Shown in pieces: positions 172 to 17,484 of a stretch of 64,000 bases of DNA. The position numbers and the translations under genes were made by a program. Origin of the DNA: Microbispora hainanensis (GTDB lineage Bacteria > Actinomycetota > Actinomycetes > Streptosporangiales > Streptosporangiaceae); assembly GCF_006874475.1 (NCBI RefSeq), contig NZ_VIRM01000021.1, positions 1 through 64,000 of the forward strand. Direction: 5' to 3'. A model generated the notes under the pieces. The model had not been told where the DNA came from. It saw only the letters and a list, made by a program, of their open reading frames with translations, and ran no database searches. The number at the start of each line of letters is the position of its first letter. The stretch's first letter is position 1.

Positions 172-531
172 CGGGTTCTCCACGGCGAGAGGGATTTCGC
201 TTCGTCGAACCCGGTTGTAGGAGGGGCCTCTGGCGCGGCTCCGGCGCTAATCCCCGAGGACCTCTGGCACGCCTCTGGCGTTTGGTGGTGCGGCATTTCA
301 AGAGGCATCCGCCAGGGCGACGCCAGAGGTACGCAGGTGCTCTCACCAGGTCTGACGGCTCACGCCGGAGCGGTGCCGGAGGCCGCTGCTGCACTCGAAG
401 CGCGTATCTGAGTTCCGCCCCGGAACAGAAATGGAAGTAACGAGCACGACCTGGCTACAGGTCAACCGCCAGCCGGCCTCGGCCGGGTGGCTCCCTCTCG
501 CGAAGGCTCTCTCCATGCAGGAGGAGGCGCG
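172..531. promoter_or_regulatory. Divergent intergenic region with short-repeat cluster
   Basis: This 360-bp gap separates two divergent island genes and has no convincing gene. It contains three direct copies of CCTCTGGC (227-235, 261-269, 272-280; the first and third read CCTCTGGCG) and one inverted copy, CGCCAGAGG, at 321-329. The second and third copies are 11 bp apart, one helical turn. The layout suggests binding sites for an element-encoded regulator or replication protein; that role is inference. Confidence 0.5.
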
Positions 532-1539
532 ATGAGGGCTCCGTACTGGCGAGACGACCACTCCACCCTGTACCTCGGCGACGCGCGCGAGGTGCTCTCC
601 GAGATGCCCGACCGGTCCATGGACTGCCTGGTGACCAGCCCGCCCAGCTACGGGCTTCGCGACTACTGTCCCGAGGAGTACGGCCAGGAGTCGACGCCCG
701 ACGAGTACGTGGAGAACCTCCGCGCCACGTTCGCGGAGGCCCGGCGAGTGCTGGCCAACGACGGCACCTGCTGGCTCAACCTCGGCGACGTCTACGCCGC
801 CGACTCCGACGGCTACGCCCGTGGCGCCGACTACAACCAGCGGCAGCCGGTCGTACGGCCCCGCTCCCGTCGTGTCGTGCCGCCCAAGAACCTGCTCGGC
901 ATGCCCTGGCGGGTCGCCTTCGCCCTCCAGCGGGACGGCTGGATCCTGCGCAACGCGATCGTCTGGTCCAAACCCAACGCCATGCCGCAGTCGGTCCTGG
1001 ACCGACTCTCCACCCGCTACGAGCTGATCTTCCTGCTCGTCAAGCAGCGCTTCTACTGGTTCGATCTCGACGCCATCCGCGAGCAGTACACCGGCGACCG
1101 CTCGCTGTCTCGCCGTTCTCGGCGCGGCGAGATGAAGCGCAACGCCATCCAGACGCCCTGGCCGCCGGTCCGCAAGTACAACCTGGCGGAGTCAGCCGGC
1201 GCACAGCACGGCACGGTTATCCGCCCCACCGGCCGAGCCCATGATGCGGCCAATCCGAACGGCCGCAACCCCGGCGACGTCTGGACCATCTCGACCAGGC
1301 CCTACCGGGGCGCCCACTACGCCCCGTTCCCGATCGACATCCCGCTCCGAGCCATTGCCGCCGGCTGCCGCCCCGGCGGCACCGTCCTGGACCCGTTTGC
1401 CGGAGTGGCAACGACTTCCCTTGCCGCCCGGCAACTCGGCCGGCAGTTCATCGGCATCGAACTCAACGCGGACTACTGCGCGCTCGCCAAAGCACGCCTG
1501 CTGGCTGCCGGAGCGGAGAGAGGAGGGGAGGCGGAGTGA
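532..1539 (+). CDS. Solitary DNA methyltransferase (N4/N6, beta-type motif order)
   Basis: Adenine-N6 or cytosine-N4 DNA methyltransferase of 335 residues. The catalytic motif appears as TSPPS (residues 35-39, followed by YGLRDY), and the AdoMet-binding motif comes near the C-terminus as DPFAG (287-291), followed by FIGIELNADY. Catalytic motif first and AdoMet motif last is the beta-class order. The SPPS form departs from the usual SPPY/DPPY and leans towards an N4-cytosine enzyme, but specificity cannot be read from sequence. The ATG at 532 was chosen because GGAGGAGG lies just upstream. No restriction endonuclease is adjacent, so it is probably an orphan methyltransferase of an integrative element or phage. 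It overlaps the next gene by four bases. Confidence 0.85.
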   Translation: MRAPYWRDDHSTLYLGDAREVLSEMPDRSMDCLVTSPPSYGLRDYCPEEYGQESTPDEYVENLRATFAEARRVLANDGTCWLNLGDVYAADSDGYARGADYNQRQPVVRPRSRRVVPPKNLLGMPWRVAFALQRDGWILRNAIVWSKPNAMPQSVLDRLSTRYELIFLLVKQRFYWFDLDAIREQYTGDRSLSRRSRRGEMKRNAIQTPWPPVRKYNLAESAGAQHGTVIRPTGRAHDAANPNGRNPGDVWTISTRPYRGAHYAPFPIDIPLRAIAAGCRPGGTVLDPFAGVATTSLAARQLGRQFIGIELNADYCALAKARLLAAGAERGGEAE

Positions 1540-1855: not shown

Positions 1856-3778
1856 TCAGGTGAGAAGACTATTCAGACGGGCAAAGAGCTGTGTCGCACG
1901 AGAGACCGTCACCGAGCTGATCTTCTGTAGCAGAGCTGCCTGCTCGCGCAGTAGGAGAGCTGCGGGTTTGTAGTGGTTGAATTTCCCAAGGCCGTGCTGC
2001 TGGAAGTAGCCCTCGATCTGCCTCACGATACGAGGGTCACGGGGGTTGAGATCCGCGGACGTGATGCGCGAAGAAAGTTCTTTGCTGTAGGCCTTATTGA
2101 CCAGCTCAAGATAAAAGTCAGTCTCGAAGAGGTCTTCGATATCGGCATCTCCCGTGCCAACGAACTCGCTGACTTGGATCAGGCCATTAGCTCTAAGCTG
2201 ACCATTGTCACGTAATCGCCTAATCGCGCCGACATCCTTAGTGCTAGAGTCGGCTAGGACCGCGATGTTGAGTCGATTCGCACCCAACAGACTGACAAAG
2301 GTCGACAGTTTGCCTGCTCCGCCGACAGGGATCTTTACCCAGTGCGGATCTAGCCCCGCACCGCCAGTACTCTCGACCACGTCAGTGAGCACATCGAGGT
2401 AGATGAGATCGCTCGGCCCTTCCAACAGAAGGTTGTGCTCCCCGATGAACATCGTCTGGGTCATCTCGATGCCCATAGCAGTGAGTAGCGGGAAGATAGT
2501 GTCTTCGTCGGCCTTGAAGATTTCCGCTGACACCTTCGTGCCGACCTTGTCCTGATCGATGACCGTGCGCACTCGATGCAGGTGGTCAGCCGAGACTAGG
2601 AACGGCGAGTGGGTGGTGTAGAGCACCTGATGTTTAGGAGCGAGGCGCTCATCGATTAGGCGGAGGAGGTCTTCCTGCGCGCGCCCGTGGAGAGACAGGC
2701 CTGGTTCATCGAGCAACAGAATCAGGTCCTGCTCAGCAGCCTCCTCAAGCTCGGTAAAGTATGCGAGAAATGAGAAGAACCAGACAAAGCCCCGGGACCG
2801 CTCATCGAAGGGGACTGAGGCGCGGTGTCGACGATTCAGAACGCGCACCTGCAGGATCGGTCCCTCGTTCAGGGGCGGTTGGGCGTCCTGCTCCGGCTGC
2901 AGGATCTCAAGCTGCACTTCAAGCTGATCATTCTGAGACCAGTACTCAAAGACCTCATCAGAGATGACATTGCTCGAGTTCTCCAGCTCCCGAATCAGGC
3001 GCTCATGCCTGTCCGTGGTCTGGAAGTCTCTAAGGTCGACGCTGGCCATATTGAGGAGACTGAGGAGCGCGCGGTCTCGACGTGATAGAGAATCAGCGTC
3101 GCGACGACGAATTAGGTCAGGGATAGATACCTTCCCGCACATGATATCATAGTCGTCAAAATAGACAAATCTCGGCATCCATGCACTGGCGTATTGATCG
3201 ACGATATGTAGCATGAGACTGGACCTGCGCCAGTCGCGGATTCGTTGAACGATGGCCGAAGACCCCGAGGTCGCATCCTCTAAGTTCTCTAACGCGGCCA
3301 GCAACTCAGGAATCGTCGTCGCGGCTCCCACTGCGGCAGCACCTGCCGAGGGTAAATCAAGCGGCTTGCGCAGATGTTCGACGACTACTCCCTCGTTGAT
3401 TTTTAGGTCAAAGGTTCGCGCCTCATTGCGGTAGCCGGCCGTAACCGTGAACTCTGGACTTTCAAGCACCCCTACGCCGAGATCCTCTTCGATCTTTTCG
3501 ATCTCGCCATCGTCGAAGCGGAAGGTTAGCTGGACGACAGGGATTCGCTCGTCAGCCTTCCACTGCTTGCGTTTGCTCGTTAACCGGGCCGGAAAGTCAA
3601 CGACCTCGTCGAACCTCTTGGACGACTCCACTGGATTGCAGCGATAGATAGATTGCAGGACCGCCGTCTTACCCGACTCGTTCTTGCCGACTAAACAGGT
3701 AACATCCGGCTCGATAGTAAAGCGCCCGGAATCTTCCACCGAGCGGTAATTGGTAATGTGGGCACCGATCAGCTGCAC
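1856..3778 (-). CDS. OLD-family ATPase/TOPRIM endonuclease
   Basis: A 640-residue protein with an N-terminal SMC/ABC-like ATPase and a C-terminal TOPRIM nuclease domain. Walker A is GKNESGKT (31-38). Walker B is LILLLDEPGLSL (D357, E358), followed by an H-switch in YTTHSPF. The TOPRIM motif EGPSD begins at E453, and a second acidic centre, VLADSSTKD, is at about D510. This is the architecture of phage P2 Old and of GajA. No UvrD-like GajB partner is beside it, so a stand-alone (class 1) OLD is more likely than Gabija. The GTG start at 3778 has an AAGGAGGA site. The gene is visibly less GC-rich than its neighbours, which suggests recent transfer. A defence role is inferred from the family. Confidence 0.88.
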   Translation of the reverse strand: MQLIGAHITNYRSVEDSGRFTIEPDVTCLVGKNESGKTAVLQSIYRCNPVESSKRFDEVVDFPARLTSKRKQWKADERIPVVQLTFRFDDGEIEKIEEDLGVGVLESPEFTVTAGYRNEARTFDLKINEGVVVEHLRKPLDLPSAGAAAVGAATTIPELLAALENLEDATSGSSAIVQRIRDWRRSSLMLHIVDQYASAWMPRFVYFDDYDIMCGKVSIPDLIRRRDADSLSRRDRALLSLLNMASVDLRDFQTTDRHERLIRELENSSNVISDEVFEYWSQNDQLEVQLEILQPEQDAQPPLNEGPILQVRVLNRRHRASVPFDERSRGFVWFFSFLAYFTELEEAAEQDLILLLDEPGLSLHGRAQEDLLRLIDERLAPKHQVLYTTHSPFLVSADHLHRVRTVIDQDKVGTKVSAEIFKADEDTIFPLLTAMGIEMTQTMFIGEHNLLLEGPSDLIYLDVLTDVVESTGGAGLDPHWVKIPVGGAGKLSTFVSLLGANRLNIAVLADSSTKDVGAIRRLRDNGQLRANGLIQVSEFVGTGDADIEDLFETDFYLELVNKAYSKELSSRITSADLNPRDPRIVRQIEGYFQQHGLGKFNHYKPAALLLREQAALLQKISSVTVSRATQLFARLNSLLT

Positions 3779-4039
3779 GTACTCCTCCTTGAGTTACGCG
3801 GAAGGACCGGGATACGCCCCAGTTTGGCAACGTGGAACAGCTGTCTGAAGGAGACCACGTGCCCTGATGCTAGCTGGGGCATCGTTCAAGTAGGGATGGG
3901 GAAGGCTCCAGTGTGCCTGCCGCCGCGAGCGACGCACCCCGGAGTTTTCACGTGGCCGAAAGCCTACTCCTGGCTACCGACATTTAGCCTCGCTCGTGGA
4001 GCTGCCGGTGCATCTTGGCGGTTTCGTAGGGTGTCCGGG

Positions 4040-7729: not shown

Positions 7730-8929
7730 ATGAGCGCTGATTTAAGTGCAGAACGGGTACGTGAGCGCGTCGCGCGGTCCTCACGCTCGTGCTCCGTGCT
7801 CCGGCAGGAGATCGGCGCCTGGCTGGACGATCACGAGAGCGACCCGCAGTTCGCCCGGTTCACCGCGCATTTCACGATCCTGCGCCGCGTGCTGACCAGA
7901 ATGCTGCATGCTCTCGACGCGGAATTAGACACCGCCAAGACCATGCTGGCTCCTGAGGCGTACGAGCGGTGCCGAAAGCTCGACCGCAGCCTACTGACCG
8001 TCCGGCGGATCTTCACTTGGTATGCCGACAAGTACGACCAGCGCCGTCTCGACCGGCTCGGTCGTCTGCTGCGCGCTGCGGACGAGGTAGTTCGCAGTTG
8101 CTGGACCGAGCCGTTCGCCGCGCTGGGTAGGGCCGCTCCCGTGGGTCCGCTGCCGTACGTGGACATCCGCTTCGATGGGATGTCCACCCCTCGTGTCTCT
8201 GTGCCGGAGGACCTGAGGGCACCGGCCGACGGGCCAGCCGCGAAGTACATCCGGCAACTGCCGGTCCCGACGATAGCCCTGCCTGACTGCGCTGTCGAAG
8301 AAGCCTGGTGGCTGGTCATCGTCGCGCATGAGACGGGCCACCATGTACAGAAAGACCTCGGACTGGAACGGGCCACCCGGGAGGCGATCCGGCGGATCGC
8401 GGACGAGGACGACACGCGCTGGACGGGCTGGGGCCTGGAGTTGTTCGCGGACGCTTACTCCGTGCTCATGGTCGGGTCCTCGGCGCGCTGGGCAGTGGAG
8501 GAATTGCAGTACGGCATGACCAGACCGTCGGCGCGGTACCCGCCGTGGGACGTACGAGTGGCCCTGATCGAGGCCATGGATCGCGGCGACGGCGACCCAA
8601 TGGCGGACGCGCTCCTATCGATCCCGGTGCAGGGCAGGCCGTTGCGGGAGGTTACCGGCGAGCGGTTGAGCGCGCAGCAGATAGCCGCGTGGGCGACGGC
8701 TCTCACCAAGCCAGACCCAGCGGTATCCCGGCTGAGCAGACGGGAGACAGCCCGGCTCATTGTCAGCGCCTCCGTGGTCGCGGCGAGGCACGGAGATCAG
8801 GCAATAGTTCAGGAGAACTTGGTGCGGATCCTTCCAGAATGCGGGCCTCCCGGGGTCCTCGGTCCCTCCTTGCCACCCCCCGAAGTGGACGAGCTGGCCG
8901 AACGGTTGGCCCGGGAGTTGGTTGGATGA
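7730..8929 (+). CDS. Zinc metallopeptidase of a conflict-system operon
   Basis: A 399-residue protein with a gluzincin-type zinc site. HETGHH (200-205) supplies two His ligands and the catalytic Glu, and GLELFADAY (E237, D241) supplies the third ligand in the ExxAD form. No signal peptide or membrane segment is visible, so it should act in the cytoplasm. The N-terminal 150 residues are predicted to be helical, with many charged residues. It is the first gene of a four-gene operon and overlaps the CHAT gene by ATGA. A good AGGAGGGA lies about 22 bases upstream of the ATG, further than usual, and CATAAT sits at 7718-7723, so a leaderless transcript is possible. It may be a proteolytic effector released or activated by the NTPase; that is inference. 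Confidence 0.75.
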   Translation: MSADLSAERVRERVARSSRSCSVLRQEIGAWLDDHESDPQFARFTAHFTILRRVLTRMLHALDAELDTAKTMLAPEAYERCRKLDRSLLTVRRIFTWYADKYDQRRLDRLGRLLRAADEVVRSCWTEPFAALGRAAPVGPLPYVDIRFDGMSTPRVSVPEDLRAPADGPAAKYIRQLPVPTIALPDCAVEEAWWLVIVAHETGHHVQKDLGLERATREAIRRIADEDDTRWTGWGLELFADAYSVLMVGSSARWAVEELQYGMTRPSARYPPWDVRVALIEAMDRGDGDPMADALLSIPVQGRPLREVTGERLSAQQIAAWATALTKPDPAVSRLSRRETARLIVSASVVAARHGDQAIVQENLVRILPECGPPGVLGPSLPPPEVDELAERLARELVG

Positions 8930-10893
8930 TCCGCGTGACCGTGGAGGTCACCGAAACGACGGTGACAGTGAAGCACGGGGACCAACAACTGGTGCCTCCG
9001 TACCAACTGCGGCTAGACGACAAGCCGACGGAGGTTCTCGCCCGACTGCTGTCGGATGCGCCTTGCCCGGGAGACATGGTTGCATACGGCAGGTGGCTTT
9101 ACCGTGCCCTGCTGGCCGAGTCTTGGCCGACGATCCGTGAGCTCGGTCCGGAGATCGAACTGGCGCTGGCCTTCGACCGCTTCTTCTTGCACGGCGAGGT
9201 GTGGGAAGCCATGTGCGGTGATGACGGCAAGCCCCTCTCTGCCGACGCCTGCCGGCTGGTCGCCTACACCCGGCTGATTACCTCGCAAACGGCGGCGCCC
9301 GTCACCGTCAGGCATCCGCCACGCCTTCTGTTCGCCATCGGCGCGTCCCTCACTGACGCCGTGATCCGACCCGGCGCAATGTTCGTAGGGCTGCTGAAGG
9401 GATTTGCCCATGAGGGCTCCTGTGTTACCCGTGTCCTGCAAGGAGCGCGCCTCGACGACCTAGAACGTGTGTGCTCCGACTTCAAGCCCGACCTTGTGCA
9501 CTTGGTGGCCCACGGCGACGTGGACGTGGAGGGGAACCCGGTCGTCAGGCTCAAAGACAGGGCGTATGGCGCCACCCACCTTGGCAAGGCATTCGGCTCG
9601 GTGCCAAAACTGCTCGTGTTGAGCTCCTGCCGTAGCGGGCAGCCCGGCAGCTATTTGCCGCTGGCCGCGGAATTGGTCACAGACGGCATTCCGATCGTCG
9701 TGGCGATGTCTGGCGATGTCAGCGAGAAGGCGTGCCGCCTGTTTGTGCGCCGGTTCACCGAGGCCGTTCACTTAGGGCTTCCGATCAGCCGGGCCGCCGC
9801 CGAAGGACGGCACGCCGCGCTCCTGCACAGCGAGTGCGAGGAGGGGCTGGACTGGGCCTTTCCGACGATCTTCATGGCGCCTTCCGTCGAGCCTGGCTTC
9901 CGCCTGGTCGATCCGGAGCCAGGGCAGCGGATCAACGAACTCACCCGCTTCCTGGAGCTACACAAACCGCCGGTGTTCATCGGGCGCGGCGACATCCTCC
10001 GCGTCACGGATCACCTATTCAGCCCCGTCCCGGCAGAGCGGCTGGGCATGGTGGTGTCCTGGACCTCGGGCTCCATCAAGGGTGAGGGCGGCACACGGCT
10101 ACTGCGCGAGATCGGCTTGCGTCTCCTGCGAGCCGGGCACCTGCCGCTCATGCTCGGGCCGTACAAGTCGGGAGGTTTCTGGAGCAGGCCTCCGGACGAC
10201 CTGAGACAGCTCATCTACCAGATCTTCCGTCAGGCCTACCGCGTTGCCGACTTCCTTGATCTACCACTGACGGGGCTGCACCTGCTGCGCGATCCGCTGG
10301 AAGAGGGGCTGGCCGAGTTCAGGGATGGCACGCAGCCGCTGGACACAGATGTGGCCCGGAGGCGGCTCGCCAAGGACCTGGAACGATTCACTCATGTACT
10401 GTCCGGGGCGGGTGACCCGTTCGGACCCAGTACGCGGGTTGCGGTCCTTGCCGAGAACATCCACGAGTGGCGAGTACTGCGCGACCTACTTGCGATGGTG
10501 GAGACCACCGGGCTCGGCACGAGAACGTGCCCCGTGCCAGTGGTCGCCACCGGATCACTGAACGACGCAAACGGGCGAATGCTGAAAAGCTTCCTCGAAA
10601 CGCACAGAGGGCCGGGGTACGCGTTTCCCGAGCTCACCCGGCTGTCCAGTGCGGAAGCGGCCCTGGAGTTCCAGTGGGTGCTGTTGCATCCCTGGAAGGA
10701 GGACCATCGCATGGTGTACGTCGCGAAGAGGGGCGTGAAGCTGGAGGACTGGGCCTTCGAGGCCCTCCAGGGCAGGCCCACAGAGGTAGACGGGGGCCTC
10801 TACGGGATCGCAAAGTTACACAAGAACTACGGCCGACTCACAGAGGACGACGACGCGGCCGCCTGGGACGCCTACGTGAGCAGGCGTCAATGA
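8926..10893 (+). CDS. CHAT (caspase-like) protease with degenerate STAND-like domain
   Basis: A 655-residue protein. The middle part is a CHAT peptidase domain of the caspase clan: the catalytic His is in LVHLVAHGDVDV (H196) and the Cys in LLVLSSCRSGQPGS (C235), with a following AAELVTDGIPIVVAMSGDVS segment typical of CHAT. After FIGRGDILRV (about 351) comes an NTPase-like region in which the P-loop position reads SGSIKGEGGTR and lacks the Walker A GK[ST], and the Walker B position reads VAVLAENIHEW. This half therefore looks catalytically dead and may act as a docking module. The gene starts inside the metallopeptidase stop (ATGA) and ends overlapping the next gene the same way. Its probable role is a protease activated by the partner STAND protein; targets are unknown. 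Confidence 0.85.
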   Translation: MIRVTVEVTETTVTVKHGDQQLVPPYQLRLDDKPTEVLARLLSDAPCPGDMVAYGRWLYRALLAESWPTIRELGPEIELALAFDRFFLHGEVWEAMCGDDGKPLSADACRLVAYTRLITSQTAAPVTVRHPPRLLFAIGASLTDAVIRPGAMFVGLLKGFAHEGSCVTRVLQGARLDDLERVCSDFKPDLVHLVAHGDVDVEGNPVVRLKDRAYGATHLGKAFGSVPKLLVLSSCRSGQPGSYLPLAAELVTDGIPIVVAMSGDVSEKACRLFVRRFTEAVHLGLPISRAAAEGRHAALLHSECEEGLDWAFPTIFMAPSVEPGFRLVDPEPGQRINELTRFLELHKPPVFIGRGDILRVTDHLFSPVPAERLGMVVSWTSGSIKGEGGTRLLREIGLRLLRAGHLPLMLGPYKSGGFWSRPPDDLRQLIYQIFRQAYRVADFLDLPLTGLHLLRDPLEEGLAEFRDGTQPLDTDVARRRLAKDLERFTHVLSGAGDPFGPSTRVAVLAENIHEWRVLRDLLAMVETTGLGTRTCPVPVVATGSLNDANGRMLKSFLETHRGPGYAFPELTRLSSAEAALEFQWVLLHPWKEDHRMVYVAKRGVKLEDWAFEALQGRPTEVDGGLYGIAKLHKNYGRLTEDDDAAAWDAYVSRRQ

Positions 10894-13800
10894 GCGCGCT
10901 CCGGCTTCCAGGCGACTCCCCCGACGGACGGTTCGACCGGTTCGACCGCGACCTGCTGGCGGTGCTCGCGCTGCTTCCCGAGTGGACCAGGGACCTCGCG
11001 AGGCGGGTGCTCCCCTCGCTGCCACTACTCGCCACCGCTTCCCATGACGGCACAGTACGCGTCTGGGGTGCTGCCACCGGCGCCGAACTGCGCCGCCTCA
11101 ACGAGCGGGCGTACGCGGTGCGGAGCGTTGAGGCGATTCCGTCGGATGATGGCATCCTGTTGGCCTCGGCTGGCGACAACCGCATGGTCCGGATCTGGAA
11201 CGCCGCCACGGGGGAGGAACTGCGCCGTCTCGACGGCCGCACCCGCGCGGTGTGGCGGCTTTGCTCCTTTCCGTTGGACGACCGGACGCTGCTGGCCACC
11301 GCTTCCTTCAACGAGTCCGTGCGGCTCTGGGACCCCACCACGGGGGAGGAACTACGTCGGCTGAAGGGCGACACTCGGACGGTTCGGGGGCTTTGCTCCT
11401 TTCCGCTGGACGGCCGGACGCTGCTGGCCACCGCTTCCGCCGACGCGACCGTACGGCTCTGGGACCCCGCCACCGGCGAAGAACTCCACCGACTCGGCAG
11501 CCACATCGGTCCAGTGTGGCAGGTGGGCTCCTTTTCATTGGGCGGCCGGACGCTGCTGGCCACCGCGGGGGACGACGGCCACGTTCGCATATGGAATCCT
11601 GTGAGCGGGGAGCAGCTGTCCCACCACAGCAGTCACCGCGGTCCGGCCCGCGATGTGTGCGCCGTGCCCCTCGGACCCCGAACTCTGCTGGCATCCGGAG
11701 GCGACGACGGCCGGATCCTGATCTGGGACCCCGACACTGGCATCGTCGTTCAAGAGAAGCGGCACACTCACGGCGGTGTGTACGGGGTCTGCGTGCTCCC
11801 CCTCGGCGGCCGGACCCTGGTCGCGTGGTCCTCCAGTAATGGCACTGTCGGAGTCGTGGATCCCCTCACCGGCGAGGAAGTGCAACGCATGGAGTCCCAC
11901 GGCGGTACGGCCTGGGCGGTGTGCGCGTTCCCTCGCCCTGGGACCGCTCCCCTGGGCGAACTCGAGGACGCCGGCGTCATCGAGCAGCAGCAGGCCCTCG
12001 GCACGTTCTGGGTTCGGGACAGGGTGCGCGCTGAGCTGGCCGAACACCTTCGCGGCTTCCCCGTCGATCCCGAGATCATCGCCCCCTTTGTCACCAACCC
12101 GCTCTGGCTATCGGTCACACGGACGCACCGTCACGACCAATCGGGGATGAGCTTGGTAAAGGCGGTTGACGAACGGGCGTCCGAGGGGGACTTCGCTGCC
12201 ACGGCGCAGCTGATCGCATGCGCCGAGGCCGTGGGCACGGTGGCGGCGGGATCCCTGGCCGGTGCGGCCCGGCGGGCCCGGTGGCGCGTCGACCTCTTTT
12301 ACCGGCAGCAGGACGACGCCCACCACCTCCAGCACTATGTGAGACGGCCGCTGATCGAAAAGGAGATCGCGGCCCTGTTCAACGACGACGTCCATTGGAC
12401 GCTGCATCTGCTCGGAATGGGCGGGGTCGGCAAAACCATGGTGATCCGCTACCTCGCCTCCGGTCGCTTCGCCGCCGATCGCGGTCTTCTCGCGCCGCTC
12501 GTCGCCAGGGTCGACTTCGACCACCTCGATCCCCGTTACCCGGAGGACCGGCCTGCGGAGTTGCTGCTCGCCCTGGGGCAGGAGTTGCTGCCGTACCTCG
12601 CCACACGCGACGACGAGGCCCTTTACCGGGAATTCGTCGACGCGGCCGACCGCCTACACGAGGAGTGCGCGCGGGAACGTAGCGACGCCGCACTGGTCGA
12701 GGAGCTGCTCGCCCAGACCGTCGAAGCCTTCGCCGCCGCGCTGCGGAACCCGAAGCGCCCGATCCTGCTCGTGCTGGACACTTGTGAGGAGCTGGCCAAA
12801 CTTTACCTGCCTGGAGCCAGCGCCCCGGCGTTGAGGCGCACCTTCCAGATCCTGTCCTCTCTGCACGCGGCGGCTCCCGCCCTGCGGGTCGTTCTGGCCG
12901 GGCGGAGGTGGCTGGTGGAGCCGCCGACCCCGAATCTCGCCACCGGGGGTCCCCTGCTCGAAGCCCGGCCTTTCGTGCGGGTGGTTGAGGTAGGCGGCTT
13001 CACACCGGCGGAGGCCGAGGACTACCTGAAGGTGCGCCGCGTGCCCGCCCGATGGGCCGAAGTGCTGCTCGCCCGTTCCAGGCAAGGAAACCGGCACAAC
13101 CCTTTCGATCTGGCTGCCTACGCTTCATGGGTGCTGACCGACCCGTCCCTCGAGCCGTCCGCGCTCGAACGGCTGGGGCGCGACCCGTACGTCGAGCAGC
13201 GCATCATCGGCCGATTGCCGTCGACCGGCCTCAAGGCCGTGCTTGGAGTGGCAGCGGAGCTCGGCAGGTTTGACCGGGAACTCGGCGAGCTGACAATGGG
13301 CGGCCCCGCATTTGACCAGCTCGCGGCACAGGAGTGGGTACGCGTGGTGTCCTGGACACCTGAGGGGCGCCCACGTGTCGTCGAGATCGACGAGAACCTG
13401 CTTCCACGACTGCACGTTGCAATGGCCGGCCGGTACCCGGTGGACCGAGAGAAGATCGGCCGCACTGCCGCCACCCTGCTGGTGCAGGCGAATCTTATCG
13501 ATCTTCCGGTGGAGACGGTGGAGATCGCCGTACGGCTCCTGCCTGTCGAGGAGGCGGCCGACCTGTGGGCGGTGCTTGAGAGCCGGATCGTGGCGGAGGG
13601 GGCGTGGGGCTGGGCCTCCCAGGTGGCGCCCCGCGCTCTAGCGGCGGAGGCACTGCGCGCCCACGAGGAAGACGCGACCATCCGCGCCGCCATTCTCGCC
13701 ACCCAGGCGGCGGCGCACCTGCACCTCGGGCAGCGCACGGATCTGTTGCGTCTGTGGCAGGCAGTAGGCAACAGCGCAACCCGGCACCCGTCGCCGGAGC

Positions 13801-15962
13801 AGCGGCTGGTGCTGGCGGCACGGGCGGCGCTGGGCAGGATAACGGCCGGTTCCACCGAAGAGTCGCCGGACCAAGTGCTGGACCGGTTCGGCGACGCGGC
13901 CCCGCCGGACGCGATCCTCGCGGCCGACGAGGCATGGCTGCTGGCCCGCGACGAGGTGGGACGCCGCCCGCCCGGAGACCCCGTCCAGAACTCACTGCAG
14001 GTCATCCGATACATACTCGCCGGCAAGTACCAGGCCGCGGCCGAGTACGATCTGGCACCGGAGGGCTCCGCCACGTACAGCCGCGGTTGCCGTGACTGGC
14101 TGCCACCGCGGGACCTCGACGCGAACGTGTGGACGGTCCGGCTCTTCGCCGCCTGGATGGCGGGAAAGGTATGGACCGATGAGGAGGCGATCCACGAGAA
14201 GATCTCCGGGGTCCTGCCGAGGCTCGGCGACATCGACGCCGAGCGGATGGCATCGGTCGGCCTGCGGCTGCTGCTCGCCCAGGGCATGGTGGACGTGCGG
14301 CTGCTCACCATCGTGGAGCAATCGGAGCGGTACGTCCCCGGGCGGTGGCCGATCCGGTGGATACACCATAGGATTCGGCCTCTCATCGTCCAGCTCGCCG
14401 AGTGCTGGGACGTTCTCGGCCAACCTGAACGGGCCGCCGATCTGCTCCGCGACCGCATTGAGGCGGCGGTCCAGACGGCGGACGACCCGGACACTGTCGA
14501 CGAGTGCCAGCTCATGCTGCTTCGGCTCTGCCGCAGGAACCGGACGACCGAGCTGTTCCCGTCCATCCGCCGGGTCGCGCTGTCGGGATCGCCTCGCGTA
14601 CGTGCCGAGGCCTGGTTGGTCCTCACCCTCGTGGAGGGAGCACGCCCTGCGAAGGTGCAGGATGCAGGTAGCTTCCATGGCTTCTATCAGTGCGCTGACC
14701 CGAACGAGAGTCTCCCTCACCATGCGTTACCCGAGGCAGAGCCGGGCATCGCGCCGGCGGAGTCCGCGGCGGACATCAGCGAGATGCTGGGGCGGCCGCC
14801 CCGTTTCAAGGGATTCGTGTGTGATCCGGAGTTGATGCTCCGGTTAGGCCGCCCGATGTCCTTCGCCGACGGCGAGCGTGGCAGGGCGTTCCTGTACGTA
14901 GGCGAGTCTTTGGCGATGCGGGATCCGCACCAGGGGAGCCTGCTGCTGAGGCAGGCCGCCCGGCTGTTGCGCGCGGGCCAGTGCGCACCATATGCCGAGC
15001 AGGCCGGAATCCTCTCCTCGCTGGCGGTGATCCGTGCCGGAGGGCAAGCGTACGTCGATTCACACGGCCCGCTGAGGCCCCCATGGCAGGACAGGCGCAG
15101 GGCGATCGAGGAGTATCCGTTCCCGACGGTCCAGTCGTCGTCGCCGGAGCTTCACTTGCGGGGAGCGCTGCCGATACGCACCGGCACCGCCACCCTTGCG
15201 ACGTCGTGGGCGCACGAGCCGATCGTCGTCGTTCCACCGGGCCGCGAACTGGATGAGGCAAGGCTCCGTGAGGCCATCCGAGGCGAACCGCGGGCACGGC
15301 TCGTGGCGGTGCAGGTTTCCCATGATCAGGATCTTGCCCCCTGGGAACAGTGGGCGGGCCTCGCGGCCCAGGACCGGCGCAGGCTGGTCGCCTTCCGCTG
15401 GCAACCAGGAGGGCCCTGGCCACATGGGAGCTTCGAGGGGATCCACTATTACGGGCCCGAGCAGTTGGCACGTACCGAACGAGGACTGGACGGACGTCTC
15501 CTGCCGGATTCCTGCTGCGTGGGCACGCCCGTGAGGACGGCCGCCGGCTGGCACATCCGCATCGCCGACCGCGACGGCGGTTCCTCCTCCAGTCGGCAGA
15601 ACCTGCTGCGACCGGCGCCTGCCGACCGTACGGGCGTCTTCTTCCTGATGGCCGATCCGGTCGACGGCCCGCCTCGGCCGTTGGGCAAGCTGCGTACGGG
15701 GTTCGTTGCCTTGGCTCGGGAGATCGTCGACGTAAATGACGCCACCGCCATCCTGATCGTCCCACCACTGCCGGACGAGACGGCCGCACAAGTGGTGCAA
15801 ATAATGCTCACCTTGCGCGCGCCGATTGTCCCTCTGCAGATCATCAACCTGACACGCGAGGTCAAACGCCTGATAGCCCAGCATGAGCACGACGACGGCG
15901 AGGACCTGCCGAGCCGCGATGTGATCCTTTACCTACGCCTTCCGGAGGAGACCTCGTTATGA
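10890..15962 (+). CDS. Giant WD40-STAND NTPase sensor protein
   Basis: A 1690-residue protein that is probably the sensor/switch of the operon. Residues about 47-360 form seven WD40 repeats (pattern LLATAS-x-D-x-TVRLWDPATGEELRRL), enough for one complete propeller. A linker is followed by a STAND-type NTPase with Walker A GMGGVGKT (509-516) and Walker B ILLVLDTCEE (625-634). Next come a winged-helix-like stretch and several hundred residues of TPR-like helices. The C-terminal 250 residues (WAHEPIVVVPPGRELDEARL onward, ending RDVILYLRLPEET) are a globular domain I do not recognise. The start overlaps the CHAT gene stop (ATGA); the same frame is open upstream but is shadowed by the CHAT gene. 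WD40 placed before the NTPase is the reverse of the common order. Confidence 0.85.
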   Translation: MSALRLPGDSPDGRFDRFDRDLLAVLALLPEWTRDLARRVLPSLPLLATASHDGTVRVWGAATGAELRRLNERAYAVRSVEAIPSDDGILLASAGDNRMVRIWNAATGEELRRLDGRTRAVWRLCSFPLDDRTLLATASFNESVRLWDPTTGEELRRLKGDTRTVRGLCSFPLDGRTLLATASADATVRLWDPATGEELHRLGSHIGPVWQVGSFSLGGRTLLATAGDDGHVRIWNPVSGEQLSHHSSHRGPARDVCAVPLGPRTLLASGGDDGRILIWDPDTGIVVQEKRHTHGGVYGVCVLPLGGRTLVAWSSSNGTVGVVDPLTGEEVQRMESHGGTAWAVCAFPRPGTAPLGELEDAGVIEQQQALGTFWVRDRVRAELAEHLRGFPVDPEIIAPFVTNPLWLSVTRTHRHDQSGMSLVKAVDERASEGDFAATAQLIACAEAVGTVAAGSLAGAARRARWRVDLFYRQQDDAHHLQHYVRRPLIEKEIAALFNDDVHWTLHLLGMGGVGKTMVIRYLASGRFAADRGLLAPLVARVDFDHLDPRYPEDRPAELLLALGQELLPYLATRDDEALYREFVDAADRLHEECARERSDAALVEELLAQTVEAFAAALRNPKRPILLVLDTCEELAKLYLPGASAPALRRTFQILSSLHAAAPALRVVLAGRRWLVEPPTPNLATGGPLLEARPFVRVVEVGGFTPAEAEDYLKVRRVPARWAEVLLARSRQGNRHNPFDLAAYASWVLTDPSLEPSALERLGRDPYVEQRIIGRLPSTGLKAVLGVAAELGRFDRELGELTMGGPAFDQLAAQEWVRVVSWTPEGRPRVVEIDENLLPRLHVAMAGRYPVDREKIGRTAATLLVQANLIDLPVETVEIAVRLLPVEEAADLWAVLESRIVAEGAWGWASQVAPRALAAEALRAHEEDATIRAAILATQAAAHLHLGQRTDLLRLWQAVGNSATRHPSPEQRLVLAARAALGRITAGSTEESPDQVLDRFGDAAPPDAILAADEAWLLARDEVGRRPPGDPVQNSLQVIRYILAGKYQAAAEYDLAPEGSATYSRGCRDWLPPRDLDANVWTVRLFAAWMAGKVWTDEEAIHEKISGVLPRLGDIDAERMASVGLRLLLAQGMVDVRLLTIVEQSERYVPGRWPIRWIHHRIRPLIVQLAECWDVLGQPERAADLLRDRIEAAVQTADDPDTVDECQLMLLRLCRRNRTTELFPSIRRVALSGSPRVRAEAWLVLTLVEGARPAKVQDAGSFHGFYQCADPNESLPHHALPEAEPGIAPAESAADISEMLGRPPRFKGFVCDPELMLRLGRPMSFADGERGRAFLYVGESLAMRDPHQGSLLLRQAARLLRAGQCAPYAEQAGILSSLAVIRAGGQAYVDSHGPLRPPWQDRRRAIEEYPFPTVQSSSPELHLRGALPIRTGTATLATSWAHEPIVVVPPGRELDEARLREAIRGEPRARLVAVQVSHDQDLAPWEQWAGLAAQDRRRLVAFRWQPGGPWPHGSFEGIHYYGPEQLARTERGLDGRLLPDSCCVGTPVRTAAGWHIRIADRDGGSSSSRQNLLRPAPADRTGVFFLMADPVDGPPRPLGKLRTGFVALAREIVDVNDATAILIVPPLPDETAAQVVQIMLTLRAPIVPLQIINLTREVKRLIAQHEHDDGEDLPSRDVILYLRLPEETSL

Positions 15963-16972
15963 CCAAAAGCCGGATATGGAACCGGGTGCGCCGGTGGTTC
16001 GACGACGACGCCGAGCACGTCACGGTCCGGTTCCTGGAAGGCCCCGAAAGCGAACCGCTGCCGCCGCGCGACGGATATCTGCGACTCTGGCTGGTCGAGG
16101 GTTTCCTGGCCAAACGGGTCGAGTGGACCGAGAAGTTCTTCCCTGCGCTCCAGGGTGGAATGTCCCTGAAGCTGCGGGGATCCGAGAGCACGCCCTTCTC
16201 TGCCTTCAGCAGGCCTCCTGGATCATGGCAGGCGCCGGGCGCGCAACTGGATTTCCCAGTGACACCGCTGCTTCCATACAACGGAGGCGTGGTCGAGATC
16301 GAGGCCGCGCTCTACAAGGCAGCCGTCGACGGCCCGCTCGCGACAGCGATGGACGTGGTCAGCGGTTTCGCCACCCTGATGGGACCTCCGTTGTCCACGG
16401 CCGCAGCGATCGCGGACAAGATTTCCGATGGGTTCGACAACCTTCTCGGCTCGACCGGAGACCGGCCAGAACTGGTCGTCCACTACGCGATGACCTCTCA
16501 CGGCGGGGGCGGGAACGTGCTACGCCCCGGGCACCTTGCTGTAGTGAAGCCGAAGGTGAGCGGCGAGCTGGAGGTCAGGGACGGCCAGCTGCATCACGAC
16601 GGCGCCCAGCTCACCGGAGTGGACTTCCTGCTCCTGCGCGTAGAGTGCCGCCGGGAGCGGGATGACTGGTGTCTTCCGGAGCTGGATGCGTTGATCAGAG
16701 CCGCGGGAGCCGCGTACCTGGAGGGCGACGAGGAGAGGTTCCAGGCACGGGCCAAGGAGGCAGTCATCCGCGCCTACGACTCGGCGGATCTCACGCCTCG
16801 GGACCAGCTCCGGGTCGCCAAACTGGTTCGACAGGAAATCGACGCGATCCGGGAGCTAGGAGCCGCACCGGGCTCGGAGCGTACGATCGAGTCGATCGCA
16901 GCCGAACGTCTCATCGATCCGGACGACCCCCGGCTCGACGAGGTCACCCTCGATGACCTCCTCGATTTCTGA
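15959..16972 (+). CDS. Unknown fourth component of the conflict-system operon
   Basis: A 337-residue protein of no family I recognise. It starts with ATG inside the stop of the giant gene (ATGA), so it is translationally coupled. The N-terminus is basic (SRIWNRVRRWF). Residues 110-163 form a glycine/alanine-rich, moderately hydrophobic stretch (AMDVVSGFATLMGPPLSTAA) that could be an amphipathic or membrane-inserting helix pair. The C-terminal third is charged and helical and ends in an acidic tail (DEVTLDDLLDF). No catalytic motif is visible. A membrane-acting effector or a protease substrate would fit its place in the operon; both are guesses. Confidence 0.7.
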   Translation: MTKSRIWNRVRRWFDDDAEHVTVRFLEGPESEPLPPRDGYLRLWLVEGFLAKRVEWTEKFFPALQGGMSLKLRGSESTPFSAFSRPPGSWQAPGAQLDFPVTPLLPYNGGVVEIEAALYKAAVDGPLATAMDVVSGFATLMGPPLSTAAAIADKISDGFDNLLGSTGDRPELVVHYAMTSHGGGGNVLRPGHLAVVKPKVSGELEVRDGQLHHDGAQLTGVDFLLLRVECRRERDDWCLPELDALIRAAGAAYLEGDEERFQARAKEAVIRAYDSADLTPRDQLRVAKLVRQEIDAIRELGAAPGSERTIESIAAERLIDPDDPRLDEVTLDDLLDF

Positions 16973-17407: not shown

Positions 17408-17484
17408 TGGTGGGGCTACCAGGACTTGAACCTGGGACCTCTTCCTTATCAGGGAAGCGCTCTAACCGACTGAGCTATAGCCCC
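17408..17484 (-). tRNA. ileT: tRNA-Ile(GAT)
   Basis: On the minus strand the acceptor stem GGGGCTA pairs with TAGCCCC. The D-loop (AGCTCAGTCGGTTAGAGC), the anticodon loop CTGATAA with anticodon GAT, and the TTCAAGTCC T-loop are all present, and CCA is encoded. A tRNA-Ile downstream of gyrA and the DUF3566 gene is conserved in actinobacteria, where tRNA-Ala normally follows; here the accessory island begins instead. Its 3' end faces the island, as expected for an integration site. Confidence 0.95.

Follow-up and report, generated by a model that had tools for sequence, protein, structure and literature searches.

The gene set and its distribution

The subject of this study is a run of four genes, here called A, B, C and D, at positions 7730 to 16972 of a 64,000-nucleotide stretch of the Microbispora hainanensis genome (contig NZ_VIRM01000021.1, positions 1 to 64,000; hereafter the window). 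All four lie on the forward strand, as do the features within them described below. Gene A (7730..8929) encodes a zincin-like metallopeptidase of 399 amino acids (aa), gene B (8926..10893) a protein of 655 aa in which a CHAT protease is joined to a degenerate STAND NTPase, gene C (10890..15962) a large STAND NTPase (1690 aa) and gene D (15959..16972) a protein of 337 aa which has no Pfam model and is predicted to consist of a C2-like beta-sandwich plus helices. An earlier note, made by a model from the DNA letters, had described four genes joined by three ATGA overlaps, and this was borne out: the open reading frames (ORFs) are uninterrupted, each starts with ATG, their lengths agree with those noted, and ATGA is found at every junction (A/B, 8926..8929; B/C, 10890..10893; C/D, 15959..15962).

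The four genes are a conserved set in actinomycetes. Gene D was found in 10 of 297 sampled genomes of the order, and matches were obtained in 11 of 394 genomes of the class, of which one was partial (1.1e-12) and two were weak (E 1.4e-6 and 2.2e-4); a search of 396 genomes from the whole phylum found it in the window's own genome only. A scan of genome contigs with the D alignment returned 16 named loci, in Dactylosporangium, Nonomuraea, Acrocarpospora, Rhizohabitans, Lentzea, Frankia, Amycolatopsis, Streptosporangium and Herbidospora, all of which are filamentous actinomycetes. When full-length D was defined by E <1e-100, 21 distinct loci remained after the removal of duplicates (L024, L025, L026, L032, L035 and L038 were dropped as repeats, and L052-L054 were replaced by L058-L060). 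Lying outside this count are a Herbidospora locus with broken remnants of A and D (L020), a fragmented genome, G263, in which pieces of A, C and D are found on short contigs (L021, L022 and L087), and the distant relatives of D considered below. The earlier note had proposed that conserved co-occurrence and order be examined, and the complete set is indeed kept in 18 of the 21 loci; two more are cut by contig ends with C still visible, and one, in Lentzea (L033), has D alone. Of these 18, 11 are collinear in the order A-B-C-D, five (the Frankia type) have D on the strand opposite to A-B-C, and two have A-D opposite to B-C; C is split between two frames in L058, and the stretches fetched for L029 and L036 end within A.

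Searches which started from the other genes gave the same picture. The A profile matched 18 of the 297 genomes of the order, and the ten matches below 1e-40 fell in the same ten genomes as D, two of which (G098 and G263) hold remnants or fragments only. The B profile, at a threshold of 1e-20, matched 10 of the 297 genomes; the eight below 1e-200 are those with complete sets, and C adjoined B in all ten loci. Homologues scattered without linkage, which the note had named as evidence against a system, were therefore not what was found, as the genome lists for D and for strong A matches coincide and the strongest B matches fall in the genomes with complete sets. From the searches with A and B it follows that B is always seen with C, and that A and D, though usually present, can be absent. 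Two genomes that carry a complete set also hold a second B-C pair (L118:8950-15434 and L119:4217-10758), with no A or D within the 19.5 kilobases (kb) fetched.

Overlapping junctions recur among the relatives, with ATGA or GTGA at 33 of 41 same-strand junctions between neighbouring genes in 17 loci. As 395 of the 719 NTGA in the window start with A or G, this context is weak by itself, and the junction evidence has weight because the conserved frame of the next gene opens at the overlap. The claim in the note of tight translational coupling and fixed stoichiometry was overstated; a fixed stoichiometry does not follow, since in other loci D or A lies on the opposite strand and in two B-C stands alone.

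The proteases and the STAND proteins

The first part of B (residues 1-330, 8926..9915) is a CHAT domain by Pfam (E 1e-17), and both members of the catalytic dyad, H196 (9511-9513) and C235 (9628-9630), are present in 15/15 B proteins. With the fold and the His-Cys dyad that define a CHAT protease, B looks active. The earlier note had recognised this much but had missed a second, degenerate STAND region: in the predicted structure, residues 346-637 (9961..10836) adopt a STAND/AAA+ fold, Avs3-like, from which the Walker A lysine is missing in all 15 homologues. A profile comparison of this half with the STAND region of C gave no homology signal (probability <1); despite this, the predicted structure supports kinship with the STAND fold. 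Searches of PDB sequences with profiles of A, B and D gave no strong match, the best for B being an epimerase (E 0.035) and a CHAT protein (E 0.044), and no match to B was found in plasmids at 1e-10.

By its motifs C qualifies as a STAND NTPase, having a P-loop (GMGGVGKT, residues 509-516, 12414..12437), a Walker B motif (LDTCEEL, from residue 629) and a STAND-type core, with the motifs invariant. The P-loop lysine is present in 15/15 C proteins, AAA_16 was matched in 14 and NACHT in two; for C of the window itself Pfam gave WD40 (1.1e-31) and, slightly below the cut-off, AAA_16 (2e-7). The intact P-loop of the sensor described in the note thus stood, whereas the WD40 propeller as a core part of it did not. 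The STAND core and the regions after it are conserved among C proteins and the propeller is variable: that of the window (residues 42-350, 11013..11939) is found at this position in none of 14 relatives, and is thus an optional insert. WD40 was matched by Pfam in 5/15 C proteins, and the other four inserts, assigned to L016-L019 by reading the inserted segments, lie near the equivalent of window residues 1036-1039. A WD40 core sensor is ruled out on these grounds. Further variation is seen in L016, where C has an N-terminal extension that appears helix-turn-helix-like by eye, and in L023, where the D domain forms the end of C as a C-D fusion. At the C-terminus of C a conserved domain (residues 1475-1685, 15312..15944) is CHAT-like by eye and is possibly a dead CHAT; profile comparison gave this weak support, with an hhalign probability of 1.2, and CHAT was matched in one of ten segments (E 0.16).

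The zinc protease of the note, with HETGHH and E237, held up in gene A. The motif occupies residues 200-205 (8327-8344), its HExGH form is invariant in 8/8 A proteins, and E237 (8438-8440), equally invariant, is the candidate third ligand of the zinc. On HExxH and the candidate third ligand A is classed as a zincin metallopeptidase. Pfam gave a weak match to PF04228 (Zn_peptidase; E 2.5e-4), below the family cut-off, and NCBIfam gave partial metallopeptidase matches only.

Weak matches to A led to five further loci (L082-L086) which hold a CHAT-STAND protein, a giant STAND protein and a metallopeptidase in that order, a three-gene cousin of the set. Its CHAT protein keeps the catalytic histidine and cysteine and, in 5/5 loci, the P-loop. 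The STAND core of its giant protein is homologous to that of C (E 1e-17 to 1e-30 by HMMER with filters off; 4e-8 to 9e-16 by blastp), with no match when the HMMER filters are on. D was not detected in these five loci. In L086, the single cousin locus so examined, the metallopeptidase matches the PADLOC model peptidase_U41 (6.8e-13), which a term search of the main text of two PADLOC papers did not trace to any system.

Gene D and its distant relatives

The description of D as a protein of unknown family was half right: no Pfam family applies, a search with D giving a chance-level match only, yet a fold is predicted and distant relatives exist. In the model D comprises the C2-like beta-sandwich, a likeness to domains that bind membranes, and helices, among them a conserved helical hairpin (residues 126-166, 16334..16456) with many small and hydrophobic residues, and no gasdermin appeared among the 50 listed rows of two structure-match lists. 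D of the window had no match in 50,697 phage records, and one scan of viral contigs confirmed no relative in viruses.

Relatives were found on plasmids. A Sporomusa plasmid protein shares 26.8% identity with D (E 8e-11); used as a query, it finds a Pseudanabaena plasmid protein (E 3e-17), which D also reaches directly (E 3e-12), and from the latter, relatives on plasmids of Prosthecochloris (4e-31) and Rhizobium (3e-5) are retrieved. Together with L055 and L056 six distant relatives were counted, a weak seventh match (L057) being left out. Immediately 5' of the D relative lies a C1 (papain-like) peptidase gene in Sporomusa, a CHAT gene overlapping a GAF-protein gene in Rhizobium, and, in the genome L056 (labelled with the genus of the Frankia loci), a gene that matches trypsin-like proteases weakly (E 2.9e-4); in Pseudanabaena a caspase gene lies immediately 3'. 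No recognised protease adjoins the D relative in Prosthecochloris or L055. A protease gene is thus found beside D in four of the six distant relatives and from four families (CHAT, caspase, papain-like and trypsin-like), as a raw count.

On the Pseudanabaena plasmid (L089:3649-18325) there is a run of genes for VMAP-C, MoxR, STAND-caspase, the D relative, caspase, EAD10-STAND and WD40 proteins, and on that of Rhizobium sp. TH2 (L122:3847-9107) GAF, CHAT and the D relative form a single run with S8 peptidase genes close by.

Genomic setting

The accessory setting beside an OLD gene and transposons that had been noted was confirmed by the flanking genes. To the left of the operon are a type II-like DNA methylase gene (window 487-1539, forward strand) and an OLD/AriA-like AAA ATPase gene (1856-3778, reverse strand), the latter in DNA of lower guanine plus cytosine content (0.566 at 2001-4000), with IS110 and DDE_5 transposase genes alongside. 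To the right are tRNA-Ile (17408-17484, reverse strand), gyrA, gyrB and dnaA. When 15 genomes of the genus were compared, the operon-side flank of tRNA-Ile mostly had 60-130 bases in common or none before diverging, with the exception of two genome pairs that share 500-600 bases, and D was present in 0/14 other sampled members of the genus. From this variable flank and the absence of D in those members, the site looks like an accessory hot spot. Several short pieces of the tRNA-Ile region are repeated on another contig of the same genome (C57), at 10952, 22318 and 53081, and resemble attachment sites as integrative elements would leave them.

Ordinary genes surround the operon in other genera. 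In four loci of the Streptosporangiaceae (L014:14806-15984, L016:3462-4637, L017:15054-16328 and L027:10963-12135) a GAF histidine kinase gene is convergent with D. A gene for another CHAT protein, of 1243 aa, is found about 3.4 kb from a Lentzea operon (L028:14460-18191), and a gene for a DUF5682 plus VWA_CoxE protein lies 1.9 kb from a Streptosporangium operon (L018:16605-19484).

A possible mechanism and its rivals

A function in defence or conflict is plausible from the setting and by analogy, and our preferred reading, which is tentative, is that A-D form, in filamentous actinomycetes, a conflict system resembling NLRs and the apoptosome, in which a STAND switch acts through a protease and D to cause cell death. 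C would be the nucleotide-driven switch, with the trigger sensed by its repeats and in some copies by the propeller. The dead STAND of B would serve as a handle with which C draws B into an assembly of both STAND proteins, a role suggested by the fold, the loss of the motif and the constant company of C; such an assembly would gather the CHAT protease domains and so activate them. D would be a dedicated protease partner, most likely an executor that cleavage releases and that acts at the membrane; A, the other protease in the cascade, would mature or switch off B or D. The outcome would be that the infected cell dies or arrests.

D could instead be an adaptor, of a membrane or scaffold type, that positions the complex; after assembly of B by C, the CHAT protease itself would then kill by cleaving proteins of the host or phage, and A would tune the complex. 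A C2-like fold suits targeting as well as killing, the fusion of D to C in L023 suits a structural role, and D was not detected in the three-gene cousin; but relatives of D beside four protease types are easier to explain if D is a substrate or executor common to them than if it is an adaptor that fits four folds, and we consider the adaptor somewhat unlikely. A further departure would be regulated proteolysis in the host, serving the development, sporulation or signalling of filamentous actinomycetes, with sporadic presence brought about by gene loss and transfer. The lifestyle of the named carrier genera and the histidine kinase genes convergent with D are in keeping with this; the patchy spread within the order and genus, the site beside a variable tRNA flank, and propeller positions that shift as would suit a changing trigger all speak against it, and it seems improbable.

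It is more doubtful still that the set belongs to the ternary systems built on MoxR and vWA (the VMAP, iSTAND, FtsH and beta-propeller types) or to the CATRA systems, and we regard membership as very improbable. In its favour are the D relative within the VMAP-C/MoxR locus of Pseudanabaena, the VWA_CoxE gene near L018, and the theme, published by Kaur et al. (2020; PMC7159879), of a caspase-like protease fused to a dead STAND. The comparison with these systems that the earlier note had called for did not recover their defining MoxR-vWA pair: MoxR was found in none of A-D, ten window ORFs and 20 selected flank ORFs of twelve relatives, and vWA in the same ORFs was limited to the protein near L018. 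Since no MoxR was seen and a vWA gene lies near one relative only, the set is kept apart from the published ternary systems. Pfam contains CATRA models, and neither these nor VMAP or EAD models matched A, B or D, or appeared among the families listed for C (best 25 of 39) or for the 15 C proteins (best 25 of 40).

To return to the conflict system that we prefer, a bolder extension of it is that D founds a new and widespread family of protease-gated, C2-like membrane executors, paired in four phyla with proteases of the CHAT, caspase, trypsin-like and papain-like types. These executors would play the part of gasdermins with a scaffold of another kind, and D would here be fired by a two-STAND apoptosome whose protease subunit bears the dead STAND. 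As a whole this extension is rather unlikely. If the preferred reading is true, bacterial NLR-like immunity would gain a design with sensor and protease as distinct proteins, each carrying a STAND, one live and one dead, a pairing that parallels the pseudo-enzyme partners of animal cell death, and a partner recurring by different proteases across phyla would widen protease-activated killing in bacteria beyond gasdermins.

Comparison with known systems

The note had recognised no named system, and no exact match to a described one was found in the searches made: with PADLOC 2.0.0 A, C and D had no match and B a weak one to SAVED_CHAT (E 0.005), and no published description of the four-gene set was found in the literature searched, in which subscription journals were thinly covered. 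As a set it is therefore undescribed in these searches, being composed of parts of known kinds and one family without a Pfam model.

Among ternary systems, the iSTAND and VMAP types of PMC7159879 are the nearest precedents; iSTAND systems are described there as almost entirely absent in actinobacteria. As in those systems, a caspase-like protease is combined with an inactive STAND and NTPases would set the threshold for proteases, and one distant relative of D sits inside a VMAP-C/MoxR locus. The set differs in having neither MoxR nor vWA, in its extra active STAND within a separate giant protein, and in using CHAT in place of C14 or trypsin; the dead STAND of B is known by its fold, which does not establish membership of the published iSTAND family. 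Other precedents are the STAND and protease systems linked to diversity-generating retroelements (PMC10907252) and the gasdermins controlled by CHAT and other proteases (PMC12881547, PMC10989679). As in the gasdermin operons of bacteria and fungi, one kind of partner protein, D with its relatives, is paired with different protease families, but D is predicted to be a C2-like sandwich and the listed structure matches included no gasdermin. Unlike Avs and the bacterial NLR-type STAND proteins, the set has its protease on a separate polypeptide, four genes, and an effector unfused from the sensor. It shares the CHAT fold and dyad with Craspase (Csx29 TPR-CHAT) and SAVED-CHAT, from which it differs in that no CRISPR or SAVED part was seen and activation is proposed to occur by STAND assembly. 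The proposed activation of a caspase-like protease by an NTPase assembly, with WD40 as a possible component, is shared with the apoptosome of APAF-1 and caspase-9, from which this prokaryotic version would depart in that its WD40 is optional and its proposed recruiting domain is a dead STAND instead of a CARD.
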